From assembly GCA_009787405.1 (NCBI GenBank), contig WRGA01000110.1, positions 1-44,505 of the forward strand: a DNA stretch of 44,505 bases, in the 5' to 3' direction. This document shows, piece by piece, positions 20,255 to 36,199 of the stretch. The first letter of the stretch is position 1. Each line of letters begins with the position of its first letter. The translations under genes and the position numbers were made by a program. Below the pieces are notes generated by a model. It saw only the letters and a program-made list of their open reading frames with translations. It did no database searches and was not told the DNA's origin. Source of the stretch: Candidatus Azobacteroides sp. GTDB lineage: Bacteria; Bacteroidota; Bacteroidia; Bacteroidales; WRGA01.

Positions 20255-20580
20255 TAAGTATGAATACACAATCCAACGGTGGTATTATATTTGACCCGGA
20301 AAACTATTATTAAAAAATATTAATGAAATATTAATTTTTAGTTTCAATAAAAACAAATTATTCATTGATATGGGTAAATGATAAAATGGGATTTTGCGTT
20401 TACTTTTTTTGTGATAGGACGAACGAATGACAATAAGGAATATCCTGTAATTAATGAGAATTTGATAAGCAAAATATAATAATATACAAACGTTTCAAAC
20501 TATTGTCATAAAATCCAAACTTGCAGATATTAGTGTGAAAATAACCTATTTTATAAAAAGAAATTTCGTAAACGAGAAAA
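20255..20580. other. AT-rich non-coding stretch
   Basis: This 326-bp stretch between the S41 gene and the duplicated fragment is strongly AT-rich with stops in all frames. I see no gene, hairpin or repeat that I can support. Confidence 0.5.
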
Positions 20581-20675
20581 CCCGGCTATGATAAATGCCA
20601 TTGGGTACAGGTGATGAATGATTTTGTCGACTGGTTAAACAAGATAAATAATTTAAATCAGCAATAACATCAACA
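20581..20675 (+). pseudogene. Duplicated 3' end of the alpha/beta hydrolase gene
   Basis: This is near-identical to 24404-24496. It encodes the last ~27 residues of that hydrolase (YDKCHWVQVMNDFVDWLNK onward) and its TAA stop, with no body of the gene upstream. It is contiguous with the DUF6734-like remnant that follows, in the same order as the intact pair at 23436-25390. Confidence 0.85.
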
Positions 20676-20819
20676 ATGAAAATTGGTCAAAGCTATTGGA
20701 GCAAACCGAATTTAGTCTCAAAAAGTGAAAATAAATTTATGGGCGGATGGTCCAACTCTGTTTTTTTATATGAGTTGGGACTCCCGCTCGCGCCGATTTC
20801 GATAAATCGGAATAAATAG
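20676..20819 (+). pseudogene. Truncated, frameshifted DUF6734-like gene start
   Basis: The first ~33 residues (MKIGQSYWSKPNLVSKSENK, then FMGGWSNSVF) match the intact gene at 24497. A small deletion in the T-rich stretch then shifts the frame at YMSW, and homology ends near 20788, where unrelated repeat sequence begins. Reading through gives only 47 residues. Together with the preceding fragment it shows that a further copy of this gene pair once stood here. Confidence 0.85.
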
Positions 20820-21222: not shown

Positions 21223-21587
21223 TCATTTCTTTTCCAAAAGGCTTCGCAGAAAAGTTATTTCTTCGTCTTTTATGGCAAGCATTTTCTCATAAGCCGATTT
21301 CAACTCTTCGAGCATCGTTTTACAGTCGTTGTTAATCGTTTCCACATACCCGTTGCCTTGATTGGTCTGGTTATTGAAAATATTTTTTTGCCAATATCAA
21401 GCAAAGAGGTAATGTCCTCCTCCAATATGTCGGCTATTTTAAACAACCTGTCCAATGTTACATTTGACATATCTCTTTCGAGTTTGCCGTATGTGCTTTG
21501 ATTTATACCCAATTTTTCAGCAATAAATTCCTGAGAAAAGCCTTTCTTTTCTCTTATTTTTCGAATATTAAAACCTATGTTATTCAT
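21223..21587 (-). pseudogene. XRE-family HTH regulator with a one-base deletion (cassette 1)
   Basis: Residues 1-65 form an intact XRE/Cro-type helix-turn-helix: IRKIREKKGFSQEFIAEKLG, then INQSTYGKLERDMSN, then LDRLFKIADILEEDITSLLD. After LDIGKK the frame is lost at a 7-base homopolymer (T7 on plus, 21383-21389). Adding one base lets the reading continue into a coiled-coil tail (MLEELKSAYEKMLAIKDEE, then ITFLRSLLEKK) that ends at 21223, the typical end of such Bacteroidota regulators. As read, the protein is 95 residues with a nonsense tail, though the DNA-binding part could still fold. It is divergent from the precursor gene, so it probably regulates this cassette. Confidence 0.8.
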
Positions 21588-21976
21588 ATTTTGACTTATT
21601 TTATGCTTGAGCAGCCTAATTATAGCAATATATGATTATTATTTTTGAAAAATTATCAAATATCTTTGTAATTGAAATATACAGCCGTACAATAACATAA
21701 TAACTGACACAAATTAACAAGGCCCGCCCCCTTGTATAAAATGGAAAGAAGCCTCCCTGCGAGGTTTACAACTAACTTAGCAGCAGAACCGTAAACTTAA
21801 ACCACAAGAAGGCGCCGTGAAGGTACAACATTCATTTGAATTTCCAAAAGTCTGATATGAATTACAGGCAGGTTGGACGTGTCCATCGGGCCAAATACCG
21901 ATTGGTTGCGTGAGAAAAAGAGCAGTTCCCGAAAAGCTTAAAAAGAGTAGGTCATCACAGTGTAATTAAAAGAATT
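21588..21976. promoter_or_regulatory. Divergent promoter and long structured leader of cassette 1
   Basis: A 389-bp gap between the HTH gene and the precursor peptide. A TATCTTTG box at 21661-21668 could be a -7 element, but its nearest TTTG (21644-21647) is closer than usual. From there a leader of ~300 nt would run to the precursor ATG. It holds a GC-rich hairpin ACAAGG-7-CCTTGT (21717-21735), a second stem CCTC/GAGG just after, and a stretch (21760-21960) less AT-rich than its surroundings. I see no reading frame of substance. It could be a regulatory leader or a degraded insertion. Confidence 0.4.
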
Positions 21977-22138
21977 ATGAAAAAGGTAAAAAAAATCAGT
22001 TTATCTAAAAAGGATTTGACAAATAATGAACAATTCATTAATGAATTTCTTTCTGCAAAAGGATTATCAACCATTAAAGGAGGATATGGAGAATGGGGAA
22101 ATTCAAATTATGCTGAAAGTACATATGTAAGGAGATGA
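21977..22138 (+). CDS. RiPP precursor peptide, probable cyclophane (triceptide) type
   Basis: A 53-residue peptide. The leader (MKKVKKISLSKKDLTNNEQF then INEFLSAKGLSTIKGG) ends in a double glycine, the usual C39-peptidase cut site. The predicted core is YGEWGNSNYAESTYVRR. It contains repeated aromatic-x-polar triplets: YGE, WGN, YAE and YVR. This is the pattern that three-residue-cyclophane radical SAM enzymes crosslink, between the aromatic ring and the third residue. A strong hairpin follows, then the radical SAM gene. The gene call rests on start, stop, leader type and neighbours; the crosslinks are inferred. Its leader end KGG-Y is shared with the cassette 2 precursor. Confidence 0.8.
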   Translation: MKKVKKISLSKKDLTNNEQFINEFLSAKGLSTIKGGYGEWGNSNYAESTYVRR

Positions 22139-22143
22139 TACAA

Positions 22144-22200
22144 ATAAAAAAGAAACAGAATGAATTTAATAAGATTATATTTATTCTGTTTCTTTTTTAT
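22144..22200 (+). terminator. Hairpin between precursor and radical SAM gene
   Basis: A ~20-bp stem, AAAAAAGAAACAGAAT on the left with ATTCTGTTTCTTTTTT on the right, ends in a T run. It starts 6 bp after the precursor stop. It should stop most transcripts, so that far more precursor than maturase is made. Confidence 0.8.
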
Positions 22201-22252: not shown

Positions 22253-23404
22253 ATGATAGTAAATGAATTGATATTAAAAGTATCCAGTATTTGCAATTTA
22301 AATTGCAAATACTGTTATGTATACAATAAAGGTGATAATTCTTATAAAGAACAGCCTAAATTAATGAATGAGAATATAATGATCCATACTATAGAGCGAA
22401 TCAAAGAACATTGCAATCGACATCAATTAAAAGATTTTCTTGTAATCTTTCATGGAGGAGAGCCATTATTAGCAAATAAGGATTTTTATGTAAATTTTGT
22501 CAATTATGTAAAAAGAAATATTACTGAAGTTAACATACAATTAGCCCTTCAAACAAATGGCACTTTGTTAACTCAAGAATGGTATTCTTTACTCAACAAT
22601 TTGAATATTTCAATCGGAGTAAGCTTAGATGGTACATATAAGGCTTCCGAGAATCGGATATATAAAGCAACGGGACAAAGCGCTTATAATGAAATAATCC
22701 GGGGAGTTGATTTATTACATAAAAATCAATATCCTGTTCGTGTATTAAACGTGATTAATATTCAAGAAACTCCTCAAAACATATACAACCATTTAAAGTC
22801 AAAATACATTTCTTATGTTGATTTTTTATTACCAGATATGACCTATAATAATATGAAAAAATATCCGGATGGGTTAATTGGTGATTGGCTAATTAATATG
22901 TTCGAATTATGGTACAACGATAATTCTTCCAACAAACCCATGATAAGGATATTTGATATAATAATTGGATTAATCATAGGAGTAGAAAGGGGAAATGAAC
23001 AATTAGGCCGAAGATTTAATCAATGTATATGCGTAAAACCAAACGGCGACATACAGCCGGTTGATAACATGATGGTCTGTGGAGACGGTTTTACAAAAAC
23101 AGAATTTAATGTAATTAATAATTCCTTGGATGAAGCAATAAACAATAACGAGATATTAAAAAAGTATTACAATTCACACCAAGATAGTGAATTGTGTGAA
23201 AAATGTAAAAAATGCATTATCAAACATATTTGTGGTGGAGGACATTTGGCTCATAGATATTCTTCTGCAAATGTTTTTGATAATCCATCAGTATATTGTA
23301 ATGATATTTCTACCCTTATAATGCATATACAAAATAAACTTGTTAAAGATTTAGCTATTCCTGATATTAATTTAGAAAAATTAACCTTACACGATTTTAA
23401 ATAA
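22253..23404 (+). CDS. Radical SAM/SPASM peptide maturase (FxsB/triceptide-like)
   Basis: A 383-residue enzyme with the radical SAM CxxxCxxC motif at Cys14, Cys18 and Cys21 (CNLNCKYC), and the family's FHGGEPLL (SAM-binding GGE) near residue 75. The C-terminal SPASM-type region carries Cys315, Cys318, Cys321, Cys327 and Cys349. Its pattern CGGGHLAHRYS, then NPSVYC, closely resembles the FxsB / GrrM / XyeB group of cyclophane-forming maturases. It should therefore install aromatic ring-to-side-chain crosslinks on the upstream 53-residue precursor. The GG-leader precursor and C39 peptidase sequences nearby support a RiPP role. The exact chemistry is inferred. Confidence 0.85.
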   Translation: MIVNELILKVSSICNLNCKYCYVYNKGDNSYKEQPKLMNENIMIHTIERIKEHCNRHQLKDFLVIFHGGEPLLANKDFYVNFVNYVKRNITEVNIQLALQTNGTLLTQEWYSLLNNLNISIGVSLDGTYKASENRIYKATGQSAYNEIIRGVDLLHKNQYPVRVLNVINIQETPQNIYNHLKSKYISYVDFLLPDMTYNNMKKYPDGLIGDWLINMFELWYNDNSSNKPMIRIFDIIIGLIIGVERGNEQLGRRFNQCICVKPNGDIQPVDNMMVCGDGFTKTEFNVINNSLDEAINNNEILKKYYNSHQDSELCEKCKKCIIKHICGGGHLAHRYSSANVFDNPSVYCNDISTLIMHIQNKLVKDLAIPDINLEKLTLHDFK

Positions 23405-23435: not shown

Positions 23436-24488
23436 ATGATGAAAAACATAAAATACTATTCGATTTGTATTCTTTTATATACATTTCATTGCCTCAATGC
23501 TCAAGATCGGATTGACAGTTTGAATGTCTGTCGTTTCAGTATCATTCATGAAAAAGATACCATTCAATTCATCAAAATCAACAATGATTTGGAAACGCCG
23601 AAGCCGACGATCCTGTTCTGTCAAGGATCATTAGCGATCCCCTTGATCATAAAATCCGCCGAAGGCCGGTTATCCATCTCTATGATCGACAATTTCGATT
23701 ATAAGAAAATATCTGAAACTTACAATATTATTGTCATTTCTTCTCCTCATGTTCCTTTAATTGTAGATGAATCACAACTGAATCATCAATATGCCTATAT
23801 TACCGATAAAAACAATGAACATTCTTATCCGCAAGCCTATCTCGATGTAAATTATTTGGAGAAATATGTGGAACGGGGAAACGCCGTCATTGATTTTCTC
23901 CTCCGACAAAAATGGGTGGATAAAAATCATATCATTGTTGTCGGACATTCTCAAGGAGCTAAAGTTGCCGCAAAAATCACTGCGGAAAACAACCATATAG
24001 CAGCACTGGGTTTTTTCTCCGGAAATCCGATGGGACGTGCCGAGCAATATGTCAGACAAAGCCGGTTATCGGAACTGAAAGGGATTCTTTCTCCGGAAGA
24101 AGCACAGGCAGAAATTAATAAAACATATAGTTGGTGGAAATGGCAATGTGATCACATAAATGAACCTTCTCAACACGGAGAGGACAGCCCGCGAACAACG
24201 ATAAGTTTCTCAACTCCAATACTCCCCGACTTGTTAAAAATTATCATTCCGATTTATATTGCATATGGGACGAAAGATATTGGTTCATCCTATTGCGATT
24301 TATTGCCCATCGACTTTATACGGGCAGGAAAAACAAATTATAATTTAGTTCCATATTTAGGATTGGAACATAATTATTTTGAAGTTGATCCGACAGGAAA
24401 GCCCGACTATGATAAATGCCATTGGGTACAAGTGATGAATGATTTTGTCGACTGGTTAAACAAGATAAATAATTTAAATCAGCAATAA
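23436..24488 (+). CDS. Secreted alpha/beta hydrolase
   Basis: A 350-residue protein with a signal peptide (MMKNIKYYSICILLYTFHC then LNAQ). The alpha/beta hydrolase fold is indicated by the nucleophile elbow GHSQG in IIVVGHSQGAKVAAKI near residue 170. A likely acid residue follows in AYGTKDIGSS and a likely catalytic His in GLEHNYFEVD near residue 310. It lies between the radical SAM gene and the DUF6734-like gene, so it may act on the exported peptide or its target, or protect the producer. None of these is shown by sequence. A copy of its last ~27 codons survives at 20581. Confidence 0.8.
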   Translation: MMKNIKYYSICILLYTFHCLNAQDRIDSLNVCRFSIIHEKDTIQFIKINNDLETPKPTILFCQGSLAIPLIIKSAEGRLSISMIDNFDYKKISETYNIIVISSPHVPLIVDESQLNHQYAYITDKNNEHSYPQAYLDVNYLEKYVERGNAVIDFLLRQKWVDKNHIIVVGHSQGAKVAAKITAENNHIAALGFFSGNPMGRAEQYVRQSRLSELKGILSPEEAQAEINKTYSWWKWQCDHINEPSQHGEDSPRTTISFSTPILPDLLKIIIPIYIAYGTKDIGSSYCDLLPIDFIRAGKTNYNLVPYLGLEHNYFEVDPTGKPDYDKCHWVQVMNDFVDWLNKINNLNQQ

Positions 24489-24496
24489 CAACAATA

Positions 24497-25390
24497 ATGA
24501 AAATTGTTCAGAGTTATTGGAGCAAACCGAATTTAGCTTCAAAAAGTGAAAATAAATCTATGGGCGGATGGTCCGACTCTGTTTTTTTCTATATGAGTTG
24601 GGCCTTAAGTTGTCTGACGTTTAAAGAATTTTACGATCATATCGAGTTGGTTACCGATGAAAACGGGAAAAAGCTTCTGGTCGAAATGTTGGAACTTCCG
24701 TATGATCCGGTAAAAACATCATTGGAAGATATCAAAGGATACGATCATGACTTATGGGCCGTCGGTAAGATTTATGCCTATAGTATACAGACCGAACCCT
24801 TTATCCATGCCGATTATGATGTATACATTTGGAATCGGTTTCCCGACCGGATCGAAAACTCGGAATTAATCGGACAACATTTGGAAATATCGTATGACCA
24901 TAATCAATCATTTTATCAGGATGTCGAAAATAATTTGAGTTATATTCCGGAATCCATTCTGAATTTCAGAGAAAAAACAACAAAAGAGATCATCGAAGTC
25001 AATGCCGGAATTTTAGGGGGTTTCAATTTAAAATTTTTTAAAGAATATACAGCGGAAGCGTTTCATTTTGTCGATAAAAATTATGACCGGATCGGCAGAT
25101 TAACCTATAAAGGCATGTTCAACACTATTTTTGAACAATATCTTTTCTACTGTTTGGCACAAGAGAAACAAATCCCGATCGAATACCTGATAAAAGAGCA
25201 GATATCAAGTCGGTTTGAAGGCTTGGCCGACTTCACGGATATTCATTATAAAACCTCATATATTCATACCGTAGGAGATTATAAGAAATATTTCAGGATC
25301 GGAGAGCAAGTCGCTTATCGATTATGGCATCACTATCCCCAATATTATAATAAGATAATACAATTATATCAAGAGGGAATATTATTATGA
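24497..25390 (+). CDS. DUF6734-like (glycosyltransferase-like) protein
   Basis: A 297-residue cytoplasmic protein. From memory I associate it with DUF6734, a family found beside Bacteroidota RiPP maturases. Features include MGGWSDSVFFYMSWALSCLT, an acidic LVTDENG, and HADYDVYIWNRF near residue 104, which resembles the DxD-type metal/nucleotide-sugar site of GT-A glycosyltransferases; NAGILGGFNL near residue 170 also fits such folds. It overlaps the next gene by 4 bp. A second, longer copy closes cassette 2 (31835-33070), and a truncated third copy lies at 20676. The recurrence suggests a general cassette function, possibly precursor glycosylation; this is inference. Confidence 0.7.
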   Translation: MKIVQSYWSKPNLASKSENKSMGGWSDSVFFYMSWALSCLTFKEFYDHIELVTDENGKKLLVEMLELPYDPVKTSLEDIKGYDHDLWAVGKIYAYSIQTEPFIHADYDVYIWNRFPDRIENSELIGQHLEISYDHNQSFYQDVENNLSYIPESILNFREKTTKEIIEVNAGILGGFNLKFFKEYTAEAFHFVDKNYDRIGRLTYKGMFNTIFEQYLFYCLAQEKQIPIEYLIKEQISSRFEGLADFTDIHYKTSYIHTVGDYKKYFRIGEQVAYRLWHHYPQYYNKIIQLYQEGILL

Positions 25391-26207: not shown

Positions 26208-26513
26208 ATGGCCAAAAGCTTCCCCTTTTACCGCCAACTCGACGCCATGGATTGCGGCCCGACGTGCCTGCGCATGATTGCCAAATATTACGGGCGCACC
26301 TATACGCTGCAAACTCTGCGGGAAAAGTGTTTCATCACCCGCGAGGGGGTTTCCATGCTCGGCATCAGCGATGCGGCCGAAGCAATCGGATTCCGCACTA
26401 TTGGCGTAAAAATCACTTTTGAACAATTGGTAAAAGATGCAAATTTTCCCTGTATCCTGCATTGGAATCAGAAACAGATGTTATTCGGAAGCTTTTTTCA
26501 AAAGTTCTTTTAG
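26208..26513 (+). pseudogene. Truncated C39 peptidase / ABC exporter gene start
   Basis: The first ~88 residues are a C39 bacteriocin-processing peptidase domain: QLDAMDCGPTCLRMIAKYYG has the catalytic Cys, and homology runs to PCILHWNQ, which stops before the catalytic His region. Homology to the copy at 33077 ends at about 26473; the last 13 residues are unrelated and run antisense over the end of the HTH gene. The peptidase His and Asp, the membrane domain and the ATPase are all missing, so it cannot work. The break falls exactly where cassette 2 begins. Confidence 0.85.
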
Positions 26514-27006: not shown

Positions 27007-27180
27007 ATGAAAAAATTAGTTTTTGAAAGTCTTAGTAAAGACATTTTTACTCCGATGGAAGTGGAAAAAATGAAACGAGTCAAAGGTGGTTATACTATGA
27101 ATACTTATACCATATATTCCAGCGGTGGCAGCGGTGATGATGGGGGCGGTTGTTCTTGTGATGGTGTATGCGGTGACTAA
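27007..27180 (+). CDS. Grasp-with-spasm precursor peptide (GwsA-like)
   Basis: A 57-residue peptide whose leader (MKKLVFESLSKDIFTPMEVE then KMKRVKGG) ends in a double glycine. The core starts YTMNTYTIYSSGG, is rich in Thr, Ser, Tyr and Gly, and ends with acidic and Cys residues (GDDGGG, then CSCDGVCGD). ATP-grasp maturases link Ser/Thr hydroxyls or Lys to acidic side chains; here several Thr/Ser lie in the first half and four Asp in the second, so esters across the peptide are plausible. It lies upstream of an ATP-grasp/SPASM pair, after which a hairpin attenuates. The gene is below usual size limits and easily missed. Confidence 0.8.
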   Translation: MKKLVFESLSKDIFTPMEVEKMKRVKGGYTMNTYTIYSSGGSGDDGGGCSCDGVCGD

Positions 27181-27188
27181 TTAGATTT

Positions 27189-27218
27189 AAAAATGGGAGA
27201 AAAGCAACTCCCATTTTT
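27189..27218 (+). terminator. Hairpin directly after the gws precursor
   Basis: A perfect 11-bp stem, AAAAATGGGAG and CTCCCATTTTT, with an 8-base loop, starts 8 bp after the precursor stop and ends in a T run. It probably separates abundant precursor mRNA from weaker read-through into the maturase genes. The rest of 27219-27435 is AT-rich and holds no gene I can support. Confidence 0.85.
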
Positions 27219-27435
27219 ATATTTTCCTATAATATTATTATTATCTAATGTTTTGCAGCACTAAAATCTTTGAAAAAGAAGAGAAAAGGAATAAAAAAGT
27301 TGTATATTTTTTGCTAATATCATTGAAAATAATTAGATTAGCGGTGAAAATCCAAATATAAAAATATGCTACGAAATAGAGGTGCAAAAAATATAGAAGA
27401 ACTCAAAAACGGATTTTAATTTGTGGGGGAAAATA

Positions 27436-27812
27436 GTGAGTATTTTCAAAGCGATAAAATTAACAAACAGTTTTTCTGAATTTAATTATCTCAAGCATAG
27501 CGGTTACAGTGTCAAAGGTGAGTTATAGTTGCTGTTGGTGATAATTTATACAGCGACAATATATTGGAGTTCAAGATATTTGGTAATGCTTTATTGAAAG
27601 AGGAAATCATCTATTCGTTGGATTTTTCGGTTCATCGGGAAAAAAGGAAACGGGAATCACATCCTTACGGAATGAAAAAGACAATACGCATCATTGCAGT
27701 AGTATTTGATGGAGGCACCGATGATTTATTGGAAAAAATATTGACAAATTCTAAAACTGAGCAACTATTGAATAATATGTTTAGTGAAAACAAACTGAAA
27801 GAAACCAGTTAA
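27436..27812 (+). pseudogene. Small unknown gene with an apparent one-base deletion
   Basis: A GTG-initiated frame at 27436 reads VSIFKAIKLTNSFSEFNYLK then HSGYSVKGEL and stops at 27528. Skipping one frame at that point gives a continuous reading, VIVAVGDNLYSDNILEFKIF then GNALLKEEIIYSLDFSVHRE, to 27812. Joined, it would be a ~124-residue protein that fits the gap before the ATP-grasp gene. If not joined, only the second part (82 residues from a TTG) is readable. I do not recognise the family. The GTG start is uncertain. Confidence 0.4.
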
Positions 27813-27925
27813 TGAAAATAGAAATGTTAGCTCTCTTATGTATAAATAAATACAATTTTAACTCTCTTTGTTGTGTATTGTTTATTAATGACTTATTAAA
27901 AAAATGCAAAACACTAATTATTATT

Positions 27926-28885
27926 ATGATATTATTATTAACTTGCGACGGAGATTTGAGTTGTGATTTGGTGATTGATTGGTTAAATTACTATCGACAC
28001 GAGTATATTCGGATAAATTCGTTCGAACTGTTTTCAAAAAATATTTGTTTTTCTCAAGAAAACGGAAAATTACGTTTGTTGTTAGACAATCAAAACATTC
28101 CGATAGAGACAATTAAAAGTATCTGGTATAGGAAATTCGGATTTTTTGAAGAGTCCGAATTTTACAAGAATTTATTAACTAATTTCAATTATGATATAAT
28201 AAAACATATAACGAAAGAATATTACAAAATTCTGAATTTATTTTTATTATCATTGAAAAACAAAAAATGGATTACAAATCCTTTTCATTCAAATTTAAAT
28301 AAATTTGCAGTATTGCAATTAGCTGGAAAATGTGGATTGAATATCCCGAATTCATATATTTCCAACAATTTTAATTTCATTGAGAACAATAAAAATTATA
28401 TCGTAAAATCTGTTGTTGATCCTATTATTGCAGAATATAAAGAAAATAAATGTATGATGTATACCACTCAATTGACATCTGATGATCAAAATTCTATACC
28501 AGATGTATTTTTTCCGTCATTGATACAGGAAAAAATAGAAAAAGAATATGAGATACGAATTTTCTACTTGATGGGAAAATGTTATTCAATGGCTATTTTT
28601 TCTCAAAACGATAAAAAAACAAAACTTGATTTTAGGCAATATAACTGGGAAAAACCGAACAGATATGTTCCATACAATCTCTCAAAAAATGATTTGTCTA
28701 AAATAAAATTACTGATGAACTCGCTAAAATTGAATTGCGGATCAATTGATTTGATAATGGGAATTGACAGTAAACTTTATTTTTTAGAGATTAATCCGAC
28801 GGGACAGTTTGGAATGGTTGATTTTCCGTGCAATTACGGATTACACAAAAAAATAGCTGAAACTCTAATTGAAATGGATGTATGA
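27926..28885 (+). CDS. gwsG: ATP-grasp peptide maturase of the grasp-with-spasm system
   Basis: A 319-residue ATP-grasp ligase related to graspetide (microviridin-type) maturases. It should use ATP to join side chains in the upstream precursor. The N-terminal domain opens MILLLTCDGDLSCDLVIDWL; the central domain has KFAVLQLAGKCGLNIPNSYI and IVKSVV for nucleotide binding; and the C-terminal part has LNCGSIDLIMG and YFLEINPTGQFGMVDFPCNY, whose EINPTGQ is the metal-binding signature of this group. I chose the ATG at 27926; a longer reading adds 38 unconserved residues. Its stop overlaps the next start (ATGA). Confidence 0.88.
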   Translation: MILLLTCDGDLSCDLVIDWLNYYRHEYIRINSFELFSKNICFSQENGKLRLLLDNQNIPIETIKSIWYRKFGFFEESEFYKNLLTNFNYDIIKHITKEYYKILNLFLLSLKNKKWITNPFHSNLNKFAVLQLAGKCGLNIPNSYISNNFNFIENNKNYIVKSVVDPIIAEYKENKCMMYTTQLTSDDQNSIPDVFFPSLIQEKIEKEYEIRIFYLMGKCYSMAIFSQNDKKTKLDFRQYNWEKPNRYVPYNLSKNDLSKIKLLMNSLKLNCGSIDLIMGIDSKLYFLEINPTGQFGMVDFPCNYGLHKKIAETLIEMDV

Positions 28886-29127
28886 AAAACGAAAAATTTT
28901 ACTCATATCTTAACACAGAACAACAAAAAATAGTATCTTTGAATTTTTTATTATCTGAAAAATTTATATCCGATTCTATTATTTCTCCAATAGATATAAA
29001 ATTCCAAGAAAGTCATGAAAAATCAATAAGGCATAAAAACGATTATTTTTTTGTATGCTGTATAATAAGCATATTTCGAGGTATATTGAAAACATTGAAA
29101 CATACAAATTTGAAAAAATATGATTGA
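28882..29127 (+). CDS. Small unknown protein between gwsG and gwsS
   Basis: An 81-residue basic protein with coupled start (ATGA overlap with gwsG) and an 8-bp overlap with gwsS. A short hydrophobic segment (YFFVCCIISIFRGIL) near residues 55-70 could insert in a membrane or bury in a complex. I do not recognise it. Tight overlaps on both sides argue that it is translated and functions with the two maturases. Confidence 0.6.
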   Translation: MKNEKFYSYLNTEQQKIVSLNFLLSEKFISDSIISPIDIKFQESHEKSIRHKNDYFFVCCIISIFRGILKTLKHTNLKKYD

Positions 29128-30139
29128 AAAAAAATCAAAATACTTTAACCTATACGCTTGTTGTATTCCTGTAAAAGGAGCAAAACGTTCAATAATTTGC
29201 GATTTGCAACGAGATAAATTTGATTTTATACCAAATGCACTTTATAAATTATTATTTAATTTTGCGCAAAATAGAAAAAGCATTGCAGAGATAAAAATAT
29301 TTTTCAAAAATAAAAATGACGCAATTATTGATGAATATTTTGATTTTTTGATAGAAAAAGAATATGGATTTTTCTCTGAACAATTTCTGAATTTGCCACG
29401 AATTGAGGTTGACAAATATAATGAGCCAAAAGAAATTACCAATTCCATTATTGATTTTGACAAAAATTCTATCCATTTTCAGACAGATATTTTTCAAAAT
29501 ATAATAAATCAACTTTCTGACTTGTGGTGCGAAGCTGTAGAATTACGCTTTTATGATTTTATTTCCGTCAAAAGACTTGCTGAAAAATTGAATTGTTTTG
29601 AAGGTTCGACTGTCAGAGATGTCGAAGTTTTGATGGAATATAATAGCAATTTCGGGCTTGAAAAAATAATAGAAATACGATTGCAAAATTCACGCCTGCG
29701 AAAAATAACATTTTATAACTCTGTATATAATAAAATCTTAGAACATGAGGAAATAACAATTATATATACAAAAGATTATATTAATTCAGAACAATGTTGT
29801 GGTATTATTTCTCCTTGGTACTTTGTTTCCAAAACAGAAACATTTTGTGAGTTTAAAAATTACAATTCTTGTTTAAACCGTAAAATTTCAATTAATAAAG
29901 AAGGTAATATAACAAATTGTCCGTCAATGCCCGAATCATATGGAAATATTATTGGGACAACTCTAAAAACAGCTTTGGAAAGTACTGATTTTAAAGCAGT
30001 TTGGAAAATAAAAAAAGATGATATTGATGTTTGCAGATTTTGTGAATTTCGCTACATTTGTATTGATTGTCGTGCATATATTACAGACAGTAAAAATCCC
30101 TATTCTAAACCTTTAAAATGCAAATATAATCCTTTATGA
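29120..30139 (+). CDS. gwsS: SPASM-domain peptide maturase of the grasp-with-spasm system
   Basis: A 339-residue protein with a C-terminal SPASM-like cysteine cluster (NCPSMPESYGNIIG, then CRFCEFRYICIDCRAY and CKYNPL) for auxiliary Fe-S clusters. No CxxxCxxC radical SAM motif is present, so it does not look like a normal radical SAM enzyme. The first ~90 residues (YACCIPVKGAKRSIICDLQR, then PNALYKLLF and IDEYFDFLIEKEYGFF) resemble a PqqD-like winged helix and may bind the precursor leader. It partners with the ATP-grasp protein in the named two-gene system; its biochemical role is not settled. It overlaps the next gene by 4 bp. Confidence 0.85.
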   Translation: MIEKKSKYFNLYACCIPVKGAKRSIICDLQRDKFDFIPNALYKLLFNFAQNRKSIAEIKIFFKNKNDAIIDEYFDFLIEKEYGFFSEQFLNLPRIEVDKYNEPKEITNSIIDFDKNSIHFQTDIFQNIINQLSDLWCEAVELRFYDFISVKRLAEKLNCFEGSTVRDVEVLMEYNSNFGLEKIIEIRLQNSRLRKITFYNSVYNKILEHEEITIIYTKDYINSEQCCGIISPWYFVSKTETFCEFKNYNSCLNRKISINKEGNITNCPSMPESYGNIIGTTLKTALESTDFKAVWKIKKDDIDVCRFCEFRYICIDCRAYITDSKNPYSKPLKCKYNPL

Positions 30140-31834: not shown

Positions 31835-33070
31835 ATGAAAATAATACAAACCCTTTGGACGAAACCGAGTTTTTCCAAAAATTCCGAAAAACATATAGAA
31901 AACAGGTTGTCAGGTGGTTGGTTGAAATCAAAATATTACTACTTTGCAATGGCATATAGCTGTTTAACTTTACGAAAATATTACGATAATGTTGAATTAG
32001 TCACCGATGATTTTGGTATTGATTTGTTAATTAATAAATTAAAACTGCCTTATACTTCTGTCAAAGTTTTACCGAATTATTTTAATTCTGTTCCGGTTGG
32101 TTTATGGGCGTTACCAAAGATTTATTCGTATAGCATTCAAGATGAGCCTTTTTTGCACGTTGATAATGATATTTTTATCTGGGATAAATTATGTAATGAG
32201 AATGCAGCGTTACTTGTTCAAAATTTTGAAAAAATATCCGGAGTATATGATTTTGCAATAAAAAATATCCAAAAACACTGTAAAAAATGTCCTGATTTTT
32301 TAGACGGTTTAAATGTAAATGATTATCAATCAATAAATGCTGGTGTATTTGGCGGAAATGATATAAAATTTATAAAATATTATACGAACTTTGTTTTTAA
32401 TTTTGTAAATCTGAATTTGAAAAATTTAACATTTAATGACAGCGGGGTTACAAATGTAATTTATGAACAATTATTTTTTTACCAGCTAGCAAAACAGATG
32501 AAAAAAACAATTTCAACGGTTGTTTCCGAAAAATTTGCTAATAATATTACTAACTTTGTTAAATTTGAACAGATCCCGTTTTCTTCTAAATATATACATT
32601 GTTTAGGCGGTACAAAAGGAAATTATAAAATTTGCAAACAAATAGAGTTGCGTCTATGCGATGAATATCCGAAAGAGTATGAGCAAATTCTTAAATATTT
32701 AAAAATCAATAATAATACGTCTAAAACCATACAAATGGCTAATTACCAGAAAGCCAGTAAAATATTTTCCGGATGCAAACAAAAAGAAGATATTTTATAT
32801 ATTCCCTTGAAACTTTCTCCAAATATTGAAATTGTACAAAAAAACAACAAATATTATCTTATTGAGGGTCGTAAACAATACATATTAAAAAATTGGAATA
32901 AAATGCTCCTGTTTTTTTATGGGCAATTCAGAACTGCCGAAGATTTATTGAAGGATTTTGCCAATTCTGATTTGAGCAGTAATTTTGATTCTGAGGATTT
33001 AAAAGATAATATTATTTCTGTAATATCATATCATTCGTTGTATTACAATCGTTTTGTTTCGCAAACATAA
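31835..33070 (+). CDS. DUF6734-like protein with a PqqD-like C-terminal extension
   Basis: A 411-residue paralogue of the 24497 gene. Residues 1-290 align along its length (SGGWLKSKYYYFAMAYSCLT, LWALPKIYSYSIQDEPFLHV, then DNDIFIW with the DxD-like site). Residues ~305-411 have no counterpart there and look like a PqqD/RRE-type winged helix: LSPNIEIVQKNNKYYLIEGR, YILKNWNKMLLFFYGQFRTA, EDLLKDF. RREs bind RiPP leader peptides, so this would bring a glycosyltransferase-like domain to the gws precursor. It lies 7 bp downstream of the lipoprotein gene and 6 bp upstream of the C39 gene. Confidence 0.7.
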   Translation: MKIIQTLWTKPSFSKNSEKHIENRLSGGWLKSKYYYFAMAYSCLTLRKYYDNVELVTDDFGIDLLINKLKLPYTSVKVLPNYFNSVPVGLWALPKIYSYSIQDEPFLHVDNDIFIWDKLCNENAALLVQNFEKISGVYDFAIKNIQKHCKKCPDFLDGLNVNDYQSINAGVFGGNDIKFIKYYTNFVFNFVNLNLKNLTFNDSGVTNVIYEQLFFYQLAKQMKKTISTVVSEKFANNITNFVKFEQIPFSSKYIHCLGGTKGNYKICKQIELRLCDEYPKEYEQILKYLKINNNTSKTIQMANYQKASKIFSGCKQKEDILYIPLKLSPNIEIVQKNNKYYLIEGRKQYILKNWNKMLLFFYGQFRTAEDLLKDFANSDLSSNFDSEDLKDNIISVISYHSLYYNRFVSQT

Positions 33071-33076
33071 CCCTTA

Positions 33077-34487
33077 ATGTCCAACTTTCCTAAGTACACT
33101 CAACTCGACGCCATGGATTGCGGCCCGACCTGTTTGCGCATGATTGCCAAATATTACGGTCGCACCTACAGTTTGCAAACCTTGCGGGAAAAGTGTTTCA
33201 TCACCCGCGAGGGGGTTTCCATGCTCGGCATCAGCGATGCGGCCGAAGCTGTCGGGTTTCGCACCATCGGGGTGAAAATCAGCTTCGAACAACTGATAAA
33301 AGATGTCGCGCTTCCCTGCATTCTGCATTGGAATCAGAATCATTTTGTAGTGTTGTATAAAGTGGAAGGCGCGAAGGCACGAAAGTACGAAAGCGCGAAG
33401 GGTCGCTGCTTTCGCGCCTTCACACTTTCGCGCCTTCGCGCTTTTACAACTTCGCGCTTGCACATCGCCGACCCCGCAGCCGGGTTGAACGTATTTAATG
33501 AACCGGAATTTAAAAAATGTTGGCTCGGCACCACCGTAAACGGCGAACCGGTCGGTACGGCATTGCTGCTGGAACCCACGCCCGCCTTTTACGAAAACGA
33601 AGACGAAAAGGAAAAGGCTTCGCGCAACATCGGATTCTTTCTGCGTTATCTGTTTCCCTACAAAAAACAGATGGTGCAGTTGATTTTGGGCATGATTGTC
33701 GGAATGGTCTTGCAGCTTATTCTGCCGTTTCTCACCCAAAGTATGGTGGATGTAGGAATCGGCACGGGTAACCTGAGTTTTATTTCACTCGTGCTGATTG
33801 CCCAATTAATCCTCTTCACCACCCAATTGTCCGTGGATTTCATCCGCGGCTGGATTATGCTGCATGTCACCACACGGATTAATATTTCGCTGATTTCCGA
33901 TTATCTGGTCAAATTGATGAAACTGCCGATGAATTTCTTCGACAGTAAAAACGTGGGCGACATCATGCAACGGATCGGCGACCACAACCGCATTCAGTCG
34001 TTCCTCACCGGCTCGTCTCTCGATACGCTGTTTTCGTTGTTTAATTTCGTGATTTTCGCCCTGATACTGGCTTTTTTCAATCTGATAATATTGGGGATTT
34101 TCCTTCTGGGCAATGCCTTATATGTGGCGTGGGTGCTGTTTTTCATGAAATACCGCCGGGAGCTCGATCACCGGCGGTTTGCACAGGCTTCGGGAGAGCA
34201 GAGCAATCTGGTTCAACTCATTACCGGCATGCAGGAAATAAAGCTCAACAACTGCGAGAAACAAAAACGCCGGCAATGGGAACGCATACAGGTTAAATTA
34301 TTCAAAATCAGTGTCAAAGGGCTGGCGGTGGGGCAATACCAGCAAATTAAGCACGGTGCAAAATGCCGATAATATCGTGGTGCTGGAAAAAGGCAGGATT
34401 GTCGAGCAGGGTACGCACCGGGAATTGACGGCAAAGCGGAGAGCTTATTATACGCTGGTGAAGAATCAGTTGGAATTAGGGGGGTAA
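33077..34487 (+). pseudogene. C39-peptidase ABC exporter (PCAT) with ATPase deleted
   Basis: It encodes a C39 peptidase domain (DAMDCGPTCLRMIAKYYGRT, Cys nucleophile; HWNQNHFVVLYK with His; IADPAAG with Asp), then an ABC membrane domain from about 180 to 410 with TM helices (MVQLILGMIVGMVLQLILPF). At GLAVGQYQQI the sequence jumps to the last 46 residues of the ATPase (LSTVQNADNIVVLEKGRIVE, then QGTHREL), in another frame. Walker A, signature and Walker B are all missing, roughly 290 residues. A natural PCAT has about 730 residues. An in-frame palindromic insert of ~32 residues also splits the peptidase domain. ATP-driven export by this copy is not possible. Confidence 0.85.
33366..33462. repeat. 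Palindromic insert inside the C39 peptidase coding sequence
   Basis: GCGCGAAGGCACGAAAGTAC (33369) and AAGCGCGAAG face CTTTCGCGCCTTCACACTTT (33410), CGCGCCTTCGCGC and TTCGCGCTTG, forming long hairpins. It encodes GAKARKYESAKGRCFRAFTL then SRLRAFTTSR, between VVLYKVE and LHIADPAAG, where C39 domains have only a short loop. A related unit (GCGCGAAAGCACGAAGG) lies just after the gene at 34490-34510. The insert keeps the reading frame. Confidence 0.85.
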
Positions 34488-34561
34488 GGGCGCGAAAGCA
34501 CGAAGGTGAGAAAGTGAAATGTTTTTTGTAATTTTGCGGTTATTTTAACTTATTATATTTT

Positions 34562-34902
34562 ATGATTATCGGATGTTATGCCCGGATATTCCCACAGGTT
34601 GAATGTAAAAAATGTGTCAATGTTTCAAAAAAAATATTCGTTCTTTTTGTCCCGTCAGGGACAACATATCGGTAGAAAAGCACCACCCCTTCACCCCTGT
34701 CCCGTCAGGGACAAAATGTTTTCCTCTTCACATTGCGTCCCTGACGGGACAGGGGCTGACGGAGGAATTTTCCCTTCTACCAATATGTTGTCCCTGACGG
34801 GACAGTAAACAATATTTTTTAGCATGTAACTTTCAAAAAAAACGAATATTACATTTTTACATCCCACTTGGGGGATAGATAGGTGCAACATCCGATAATC
34901 AT
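34562..34902. repeat. Long palindromic repeat, copy B (complete)
   Basis: A 341-bp imperfect palindrome: ATGATTATCGGATGTTATGC at the left end is the inverse of the right end GTGCAACATCCGATAATCAT, except for a few bases. Inner arms consist of GTCCCGTCAGGGACAA and GTCCCTGACGGGACA, each present twice. It has no coding capacity. It lies between the exporter pseudogene and HlyD and ends 11 bp before the HlyD ATG, so it probably disrupted their co-transcription. Confidence 0.9.
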
Positions 34903-34913
34903 TTATATTAATT

Positions 34914-36199
34914 ATGGAGGACAACAAAAATATAGAACTCCGCAGCGAAGAAGTACAGGATGTACTCGGAGCTGTTCCGCCCCGGATTTTACGCCGGGGG
35001 ATTACTGTGCTTTTTCTCGTGGTGGTGATGCTGTTGGTCGGAAGTTGGTTTTTCAAATATCCCGATGTCATCTCCTCTTCCATGACTTTGACAAGCAATA
35101 CGCCTCCGGCAGGCATAACAGCCAAAGTCGGCGGAAAATTGACCGGTTGTATGTCCGGGATAAACAGACCGTCAAAAAAGGAGACTGTCTGGCAGTCATC
35201 GAAAATCCGGCATCCGTCGAAGACCTCTCGTTATTGAAAAAAAGTTTGGAAAAGCTGTTGCGGCACCCCGATGACATTGATTCGTTCCCGGTGCGGGAAA
35301 TGAATGCGGGGGAGGTTCAACCGGCTTATTCCGCATTTTACCGGTCACTTGTCAACTATAAGCGGTTCAGGGAATTGTCGTATTATCCGAAAAAAACGAC
35401 CGCCGTCGAAACCCGATTGGAACAGTACAAAAAGTATTACGGAAGCAACGCGAGACAAAAAACGATCGCGGAAGCCCAATTTCAATTGGCGGAAAAACAG
35501 TTCGGCAGAGATTCGCTGCTGAATGAAAAAGGCGTCATCTCGAAAGAGGACATGGACATTGCCCGGAAAGAATATCTGCAAAACCTGTCGTCGCTGGAAA
35601 ACGCCGATGCGGCTCTCTACAACATCGACATCCAAATCGCTCAGACCCGGGAACTATTATTGGACACCCGGCAACAATATTTTGAAACGAAAAGCAACTT
35701 GGAATCGGAATTATACGCCGACGCCGTACAATTGCTGAATGAGATCAATACCTGGGAAATGACGTATGTCCTGACTTCTCCTTTGGACGGAACCGTCGCT
35801 TTTACGGATTATTGGGCCGAAAATCAGAACGTCACGGCCGGGGAAGTTGTTTTCACCGTCATTCCGACGGAAGATTCGGGCTTTTTGGGGAAAGCCTTAT
35901 TGCCCGTGGAACGTTCCGGAAAGGTAAAACCCGGCCTGAAAGTCAACATTCGTTTCGCCAATTACCCGGACAGGGAATTCGGCATGGTCAGGGGCATCGT
36001 GAACAAAATATCGCTGATTCCCTCAAACGGATATTACCCGGTTGAAATCGGCCTCCCCGAGGGACTGACCACCACGTATCACAAGCAATTGCCGTTTTCA
36101 CAAGAAATGCAGGCACAAGCCGAAATCGTCACGGATGACCTCCGGCTGATCGAACGGGTACTGATGCCTGTAAAGAAAATAATTGCCGATAACAGGTAA
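34914..36199 (+). pseudogene. HlyD-family adaptor with a one-base deletion
   Basis: An HlyD/PCP-type periplasmic adaptor that normally links the C39 ABC exporter to the outer membrane. It starts MEDNKNIELRSEEVQDVLGA and has a membrane anchor at about residues 28-47 (ITVLFLVVVMLLVGSWFF). The biotinyl-lipoyl half-motif ITAKVGGK is at residue ~75. There the frame breaks in a 4-A run (35136-35139). With one base added it continues IDRLYVRDKQTVKKGDCLAV to the end. Coiled-coil hairpin, second lipoyl half (VLTSPLDGTVAFTDYWAENQ) and beta-barrel follow. About 428 residues if repaired. As it stands only ~107 residues would be made. Confidence 0.85.

Follow-up and report, generated by a model that had tools for sequence, protein, structure and literature searches.

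The characterised enzymes of the cyclophane-forming radical SAM/SPASM group join the aromatic ring of residue i to the beta-carbon of residue i+2 (PMC11002830). The known rings include Tyr-Asp (YxdB) as well as Tyr-Arg and His-Arg (YhhB), and Glu is absent from the third residues listed in that review (PMC11002830). In the YhhA/YhhB system (NF041707), a small precursor is encoded directly before the enzyme and carries aromatic-x-Arg triplets (YDR, HHR, HNR) close to its C-terminus. The precursor also precedes the enzyme in the FxsB/HaaB systems of actinomycetes (TIGR04269), whose partners are a TPR protein, an N-acetyltransferase and a HEXXH protein. ChlB, called a multiple cyclophane synthase in the title of a paper cited by PMC12636437 (its reference 13), contributes a radical SAM domain from a protein in which this domain is fused to a HExxH beta-hydroxylase (PMC12636437). 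The bioactivities of triceptides have not been elucidated (PMC12257519).

We studied a locus that is likewise headed by a small precursor gene directly before a YhhB-like enzyme. It is located in the window, i.e., the whole analysed stretch of 44,505 nt from Candidatus Azobacteroides sp. (contig WRGA01000110.1). We consider it quite probable that the locus is a triceptide-type RiPP cassette, with predicted rings at the triplet YAE and probably at YVR, a possible ring at YGE, C39 export and a secreted hydrolase acting on or around the peptide. Its features are:

21300..21587, minus strand: divergent Cro/C1-type HTH gene (PF01381, 57 bits), possible regulator
21977..22138, plus strand: precursor gene, 53 aa with ATG start; nine homologous precursors
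21977-22084, plus strand: precursor leader with GG at its end
22085-22135, plus strand: precursor core YGEWGNSNYAESTYVRR, followed by the stop codon (22136-22138)
22085..22102, plus strand: triplets YGE (possible third site) and WGN (unsupported)
22109..22117, plus strand: triplet YAE (Tyr45-Ala46-Glu47), predicted main cyclophane site
22124..22132, plus strand: triplet YVR (Tyr50-Val51-Arg52), predicted second cyclophane site
22144..22200, plus strand: hairpin that separates the precursor from the enzyme gene (outer stem of 22 bp, followed by a U-rich part), probably an attenuator
22253..23404, plus strand: radical SAM/SPASM peptide maturase (PF04055), 383 aa, YhhB/FxsB-like, predicted to form cyclophanes
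23436..24488, plus strand: alpha/beta-hydrolase that begins with a hydrophobic, signal-peptide-like stretch and constantly accompanies the enzyme clade
24497-25390: DUF6734 gene (PF20508), after the hydrolase
31835-33070: second DUF6734 gene (PF20508)
33077..36199, plus strand: remnant of a C39 peptidase-ABC transporter gene that has lost most of its ATPase domain, and a frame-shifted HlyD

Gene order, enzyme motifs, conserved triplets, leader motif, hairpin and hydrolase triad are read directly from the sequence. The original prediction had placed a 53-residue reading frame upstream of a radical SAM enzyme. We can confirm this frame, which has an ATG start, a GG leader and a spacing of 114 nt to the radical SAM ORF. 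Also the triplets YGE, WGN, YAE and YVR are present in the 17-residue core as had been described. Beyond that prediction, we observed a hydrolase as constant partner, a hairpin separating the precursor from its enzyme and a broken exporter.

With regard to the enzyme, both the CxxxCxxC motif (positions 14-18-21) and the SPASM cysteines (276, 318, 321, 327, 349) are intact and invariant within its clade. The best NCBIfam matches are YhhB with 301 bits (NF041707; curated equivalog cut-off 445) and FxsB with 287 bits (TIGR04269; curated subfamily cut-off 370). Membership in either family was rejected based on these scores and on the separate position in the tree, and the enzyme scores below the cut-off of every named NCBIfam cyclophane family. 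Sulfatase maturases reach 175 bits, and the TIGR04148 maturase family, with 68 bits versus a cut-off of 300, does not include the enzyme. The nearest solved structure is the radical SAM domain of ChlB (PDB 9gm3, 9gmc; E 1.1e-49 over residues 7-367), while the window enzyme has no HExxH domain.

Relatives were collected from searches of 1,986 genomes, with the enzyme as the query in some of these searches. The nine relative enzymes are 41-46% identical to that of the window and form a clade with it (support 97/96), while YhhB, HaaB and FxsB are found in a separate clade (99/97). Using a profile of the ten enzymes on a phylum-wide sample, three members score 591-707 bits and the next enzyme 429, a gap that is partly by construction since these three are part of the profile itself. 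As 7/9 relatives come from one genus, the independent samples are the window, L021, L073 and that genus, i.e., a modest number. A scan of genome contigs with the enzyme revealed only one distant locus, and a search of plasmid DNA found no relatives. The best NCBIfam matches, the tree, the intact Cys clusters and ChlB as nearest solved structure support the placement of the window enzyme in the cyclophane-forming radical SAM/SPASM group. That is, the enzyme type proposed originally holds at the level of the group (YhhB/FxsB and ChlB matches) but not at that of a named family. By its sequence, the cassette thus shows the testable class features of triceptide systems with a predicted ring chemistry, but reaches the cut-off of no named enzyme family.

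The described systems also differ in their surroundings. YVR of the window core corresponds to the aromatic-x-Arg triplets of YhhA (YDR, HHR, HNR). The YhhA precursors examined, however, have neither a GG leader nor a Y-x-E/D motif, in contrast to the window clade, and the respective YhhB loci lack an alpha/beta-hydrolase (one has a 2OG-Fe(II) oxygenase). FxsB/HaaB, although from the same enzyme superfamily, belong to a different clade and their precursors differ from that of the window. The ring of YxdB (WP_226048651.1), as described in PMC11002830, connects Tyr with the acidic residue at i+2, similar to the triplets YPD and YAD of L021 and L073. By this description, YxdB may belong to the clade of the window enzyme.

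Some further cassettes are found outside the clade. L026 (7060-7320, minus strand) is related and comes with a hydrolase and a C39 domain. It was rejected as eleventh member and taken as a hint only, since its enzyme is placed outside the clade (weak support) and a stop codon interrupts the precursor frame immediately behind the GFG of the leader; past this stop, the frame continues with ...ITSWPESTFHDVLPPITK, where Trp occupies the ring position. Other enzyme relatives from Bacteroidota (L023, L045, L069, L072, L027, L046, L047, L050, L075) have quite different precursors, e.g., WGRSWGRSWGR, WTQHSSWTKHS, STWERSVEN or of SAAYDRVDQFLRA type, and probably represent further undescribed groups of cyclophane peptides.

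The full precursor reads MKKVKKISLSKKDLTNNEQFINEFLSAKGLSTIKGG-YGEWGNSNYAESTYVRR, where the junction of leader and core is ...STIKGG/YGEWGNSNYAESTYVRR. Upstream of each of the ten clade enzymes is a short ORF, the leader of which has GG or GS at its end; for one of the ten (L044), a clear ATG start was not seen. For C39 peptidase-transporters, positions -4, -7 and -12 of the leader must be hydrophobic (PMC10885120). The window precursor has I, L and L there, and 10/10 clade precursors have hydrophobic residues, such that, together with the GG-type end, the leader fits C39 cleavage. The window precursor thereby has the double-glycine leader of PCAT-exported RiPPs (GG/GS end with hydrophobic -4/-7/-12). 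The leader is also similar to those of TIGR04149, i.e., GG-type precursors of radical-SAM-modified RiPPs from Bacteroidota, but its 17.4 bits are below the curated cut-off of 25 and thus outside the family; weak matches to TIGR04149 are found for 4/10 clade precursors.

Five pairwise comparisons among the relatives' precursors, with that of the window left out, provide dN values of 0.08-0.24 and dS values of 0.98-1.54. The resulting dN/dS of about 0.05-0.2 is approximate, since dS is near or above 1 and thus saturated. As judged from these sequences, the relatives' precursors evolve under purifying selection. The hairpin following the precursor has an energy of -24.4 kcal/mol and a z of -6.6 (computed for the window hairpin only), and hairpins of unrelated sequence are found at the same place in 9/9 relatives. 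This arrangement is in keeping with attenuation that would yield more precursor than enzyme. That 21977-22138 is a real gene is supported by the precursor homologues occupying this place in nine other genomes, the relatives' dN/dS, the leader residues and the hairpin in ten loci. A divergent HTH gene similar to that of the window is also present in L042, L065, L066, L067 and L068 and is possibly a regulator of the cassette.

Taken alone, the triplets of the window core are weak evidence, barely above chance: at least four aromatic-x-polar triplets occur in 4% of shuffles of its 17 residues (P 0.04). The decision on the triplets therefore rests on the relatives. Their cores are TSLQPPKYDNVAYPDTTYVRK (L021), ...GYSNYADTVYVSRPR (L073), YSERTYAESTG... 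(L022, L067, L068), NLDRDPSNDRTYTESTYVRR (L065), DLLMRDPTKDRTHAESTYVRK (L066, with HAE where the window has YAE), TMEMRDPTPGRTYTESTYVKH (L042) and IMEDRDPPAGRTYTESTYVRR (L044). A motif aromatic-x-[E/D]-[S/T]-[T/V] at YAE is found in 10/10 clade cores versus 0/19 precursors from outside the clade, which identifies YAE as the conserved site. Since the motif was defined on the same ten, this contrast is a description of the clade and no independent test. The 19 outside sequences are precursors or probable precursors of non-clade enzymes, chosen by eye, and carry other triplets (YDR, WGR, WTQ, FLR). Across the ten cores, the first position of the YAE site is Tyr in nine and His in one (L066), and the third is Glu in eight and Asp in two, the latter being the YPD and YAD of L021 and L073.

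For YVR, the first position is Tyr in 7/10 cores, followed by Arg or Lys (six) or Ser (one) as third residue, while three relatives have Gly at this place, i.e., G-V/T-K/Q instead of YVR. YGE finds a counterpart in the YSE directly after the leader of L022, L067 and L068, which belong to one genus; for WGN there is none in the precursors of the nine relatives. The expectation that homologous precursors keep the triplets is thus borne out for YAE (as aromatic-x-Glu/Asp in 10/10) and mostly for YVR, but for YGE in three relatives only and for WGN in none. Similarly, of the Glu and Asn predicted as third residues, Glu (or Asp) is retained at the first conserved triplet, while the second has Arg, Lys or Ser and the Asn of WGN is without counterpart. 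From these patterns, one to three rings are likelier than four. Likely ring sites are found by conservation across relatives and not by triplet counts within a single sequence.

Downstream of the enzyme, the alpha/beta-hydrolase is found in the window and in 8/9 relatives, i.e., in every relative with downstream DNA available: the contig of L067 ends before the respective position, and in L044 the hydrolase is split by a frame change. The triad Ser172, Asp281 and His312 is invariant among the nine aligned members. Structural matches of the hydrolase model (pLDDT 81) include both esterases and S9 peptidases (best Z about 22), and the fold comparison provides neither a distinction between the two nor a substrate.

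The exporter of the window is broken. Within the C39-ABC gene, the membrane domain directly joins the last residues of the protein such that most of the ATPase domain is lost, and the functional C39-ABC that is expected in the cluster of a PCAT-exported RiPP is thus absent here. In L021 and L022, both C39-ABC and HlyD are intact and the clusters complete. The genome of the window holds three intact full-length C39-ABC genes on other contigs, one of which would be needed for export given the state of the nearby one. Partial copies of the hydrolase/DUF6734 junction (20576-20771, 93%) and of the C39 domain (26235-26476, 87%) remain from duplicated cassettes and show that the region was duplicated and eroded.

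For ring chemistry, number of rings and the role of the hydrolase, we infer the following course. At YAE, the radical SAM/SPASM enzyme would connect the aromatic side chain of Tyr45 with the Glu47 beta-carbon, forming a three-residue cyclophane with a loss of 2 Da. Tyr50 would probably be joined in the same way to the beta-carbon of Arg52 (YVR; again a three-residue cyclophane with a 2-Da loss), and YGE is a possible third site. The calculated mass of the core is 2050.91 Da without modification and 2048.90, 2046.88, 2044.87 and 2042.85 Da with one, two, three and four rings, respectively. A C39 peptidase-transporter would then cut after GG and export the 17-residue core, on or around which the secreted hydrolase would act, either finishing the peptide or protecting the producer. 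The known rings of YxdB and YhhB match the Tyr/His first and the Asp or Arg third residues of the window clade; a Tyr-Glu ring would extend the list of third residues and is apparently unreported. Against the proposed course count the enzyme scores below cut-offs, the absence of Glu from the listed third residues, the replacement of YVR in three relatives, the sampling largely from a single genus and the broken exporter. More tentatively, and just short of a balanced call, the clade may represent a Bacteroidota triceptide subfamily that combines a Tyr-to-Glu beta-carbon link with an exported peptide that is then completed or neutralised by an alpha/beta-hydrolase which is secreted and dedicated to this task. 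The literature covered, to which the 2022 triceptide survey does not belong, holds no description of such a two-compartment cyclophane pathway with a secreted hydrolase partner. A fixed two-triplet core with a constant secreted hydrolase constitutes a defined small substrate for which both structure and function are testable. The hydrolase is expected to act on the product or in its vicinity and thereby also gives a handle on triceptide function.

Up to four rings had been proposed originally, i.e., a product with YGE, WGN, YAE and YVR all cyclised. While all four are aromatic-x-polar and three relatives show YSE after the leader, this proposal is opposed by WGN, which occurs in no relative, by the restriction of the YGE counterpart to one genus and by the near-chance statistics of the core alone. 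Enzymes of the group can form several rings per peptide, as the title on ChlB as multiple cyclophane synthase indicates, but we regard a four-ring product as quite improbable. Alternatively, the conserved tyrosines could be modified in another way, e.g., by a crosslink other than i/i+2, by an ether bond, or by an oxidation or epimerisation that forms no ring. SPASM radical SAM enzymes catalyse many reactions, the sulfatase maturase score of the enzyme fits such a role, and the conserved stretch runs past the triplet (S-T-Y-V-R). On the other hand, tree and solved-structure match group the enzyme with cyclophane makers, and the exchanges of Tyr to His exactly at the ring position (L066) and of Glu to Asp at the third position fit the known chemistry. 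Since Cys is absent from the core, thioether chemistry (sactipeptide, ranthipeptide) was rejected. Altogether, we deem a different tyrosine modification improbable and keep cyclophanes at YAE and probably YVR as the preferred reading.

For the hydrolase, second-step processing of the exported peptide is a fair guess by analogy, because secreted serine proteases of lanthipeptide pathways cleave a second time once the transporter has acted (PMC10885120). It could instead serve self-protection, i.e., destroy re-entering peptide. The constant linkage to precursor and enzyme even without an adjacent transporter as well as the signal-peptide-like start point in this direction, but the lanthipeptide proteases make maturation equally plausible and the fold fits esterases as well as peptidases, such that self-protection is a sizeable possibility to which we give somewhat less than half of our belief. 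Finally, the cassette might be decaying in this strain and yield no exported product, as suggested by the C39-ABC without ATPase domain, the frame-shifted HlyD and the fragments of a second hydrolase/DUF6734 junction (20576-20771) and of a second C39 domain (26208-26513). We consider this rather unlikely: precursor, enzyme and hydrolase are intact with catalytic residues kept, intact C39-ABC genes exist elsewhere in the genome, and L042, L044, L065 and L066 also have the cassette with no adjoining transporter gene. Furthermore, the assembly consists of 125 contigs, and the transporter deletion may be real decay or an assembly fault.

Upstream of the precursor, positions 21919-21953 (plus strand) match the cis-regulatory Rfam DUF805b RNA (RF02914; 36.0 bits versus a gathering threshold of 35.6, E 1e-6), where the match ends 23 nt before the precursor's ATG. 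It was rejected as part of the cassette, since it was not found in loci from ten relatives. Likewise, DUF6734 was rejected as constant partner for lack of a match in the relatives' loci. DUF6734 genes are located beside RiPP clusters at three places of the genome (24497-25390, 31835-33070 and L096 6892-8415). The DUF6734 model is poor (pLDDT 67) with weak GT-A glycosyltransferase-like matches, none with E <0.001; going by this model, the proteins may be RiPP-linked glycosyltransferases.

A separate second RiPP cluster of the grasp-with-spasm graspetide type is encoded at 27007-30139 (plus strand). It comprises an ATP-grasp protein (TIGR04192, 301 bits), a SPASM protein (TIGR04193, 296 bits) and a GG precursor (MKKLVFESLSKDIF...RVKGGYTMNTYTIYSSGGSGDDGGGCSCDGVCGD). 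Small GG-leader peptides are also found near the intact C39-ABC genes (L096 5043-5225, L097 3167-3358 and L098 10364-10543). With these three further peptides, the genome seems to hold several RiPP clusters.
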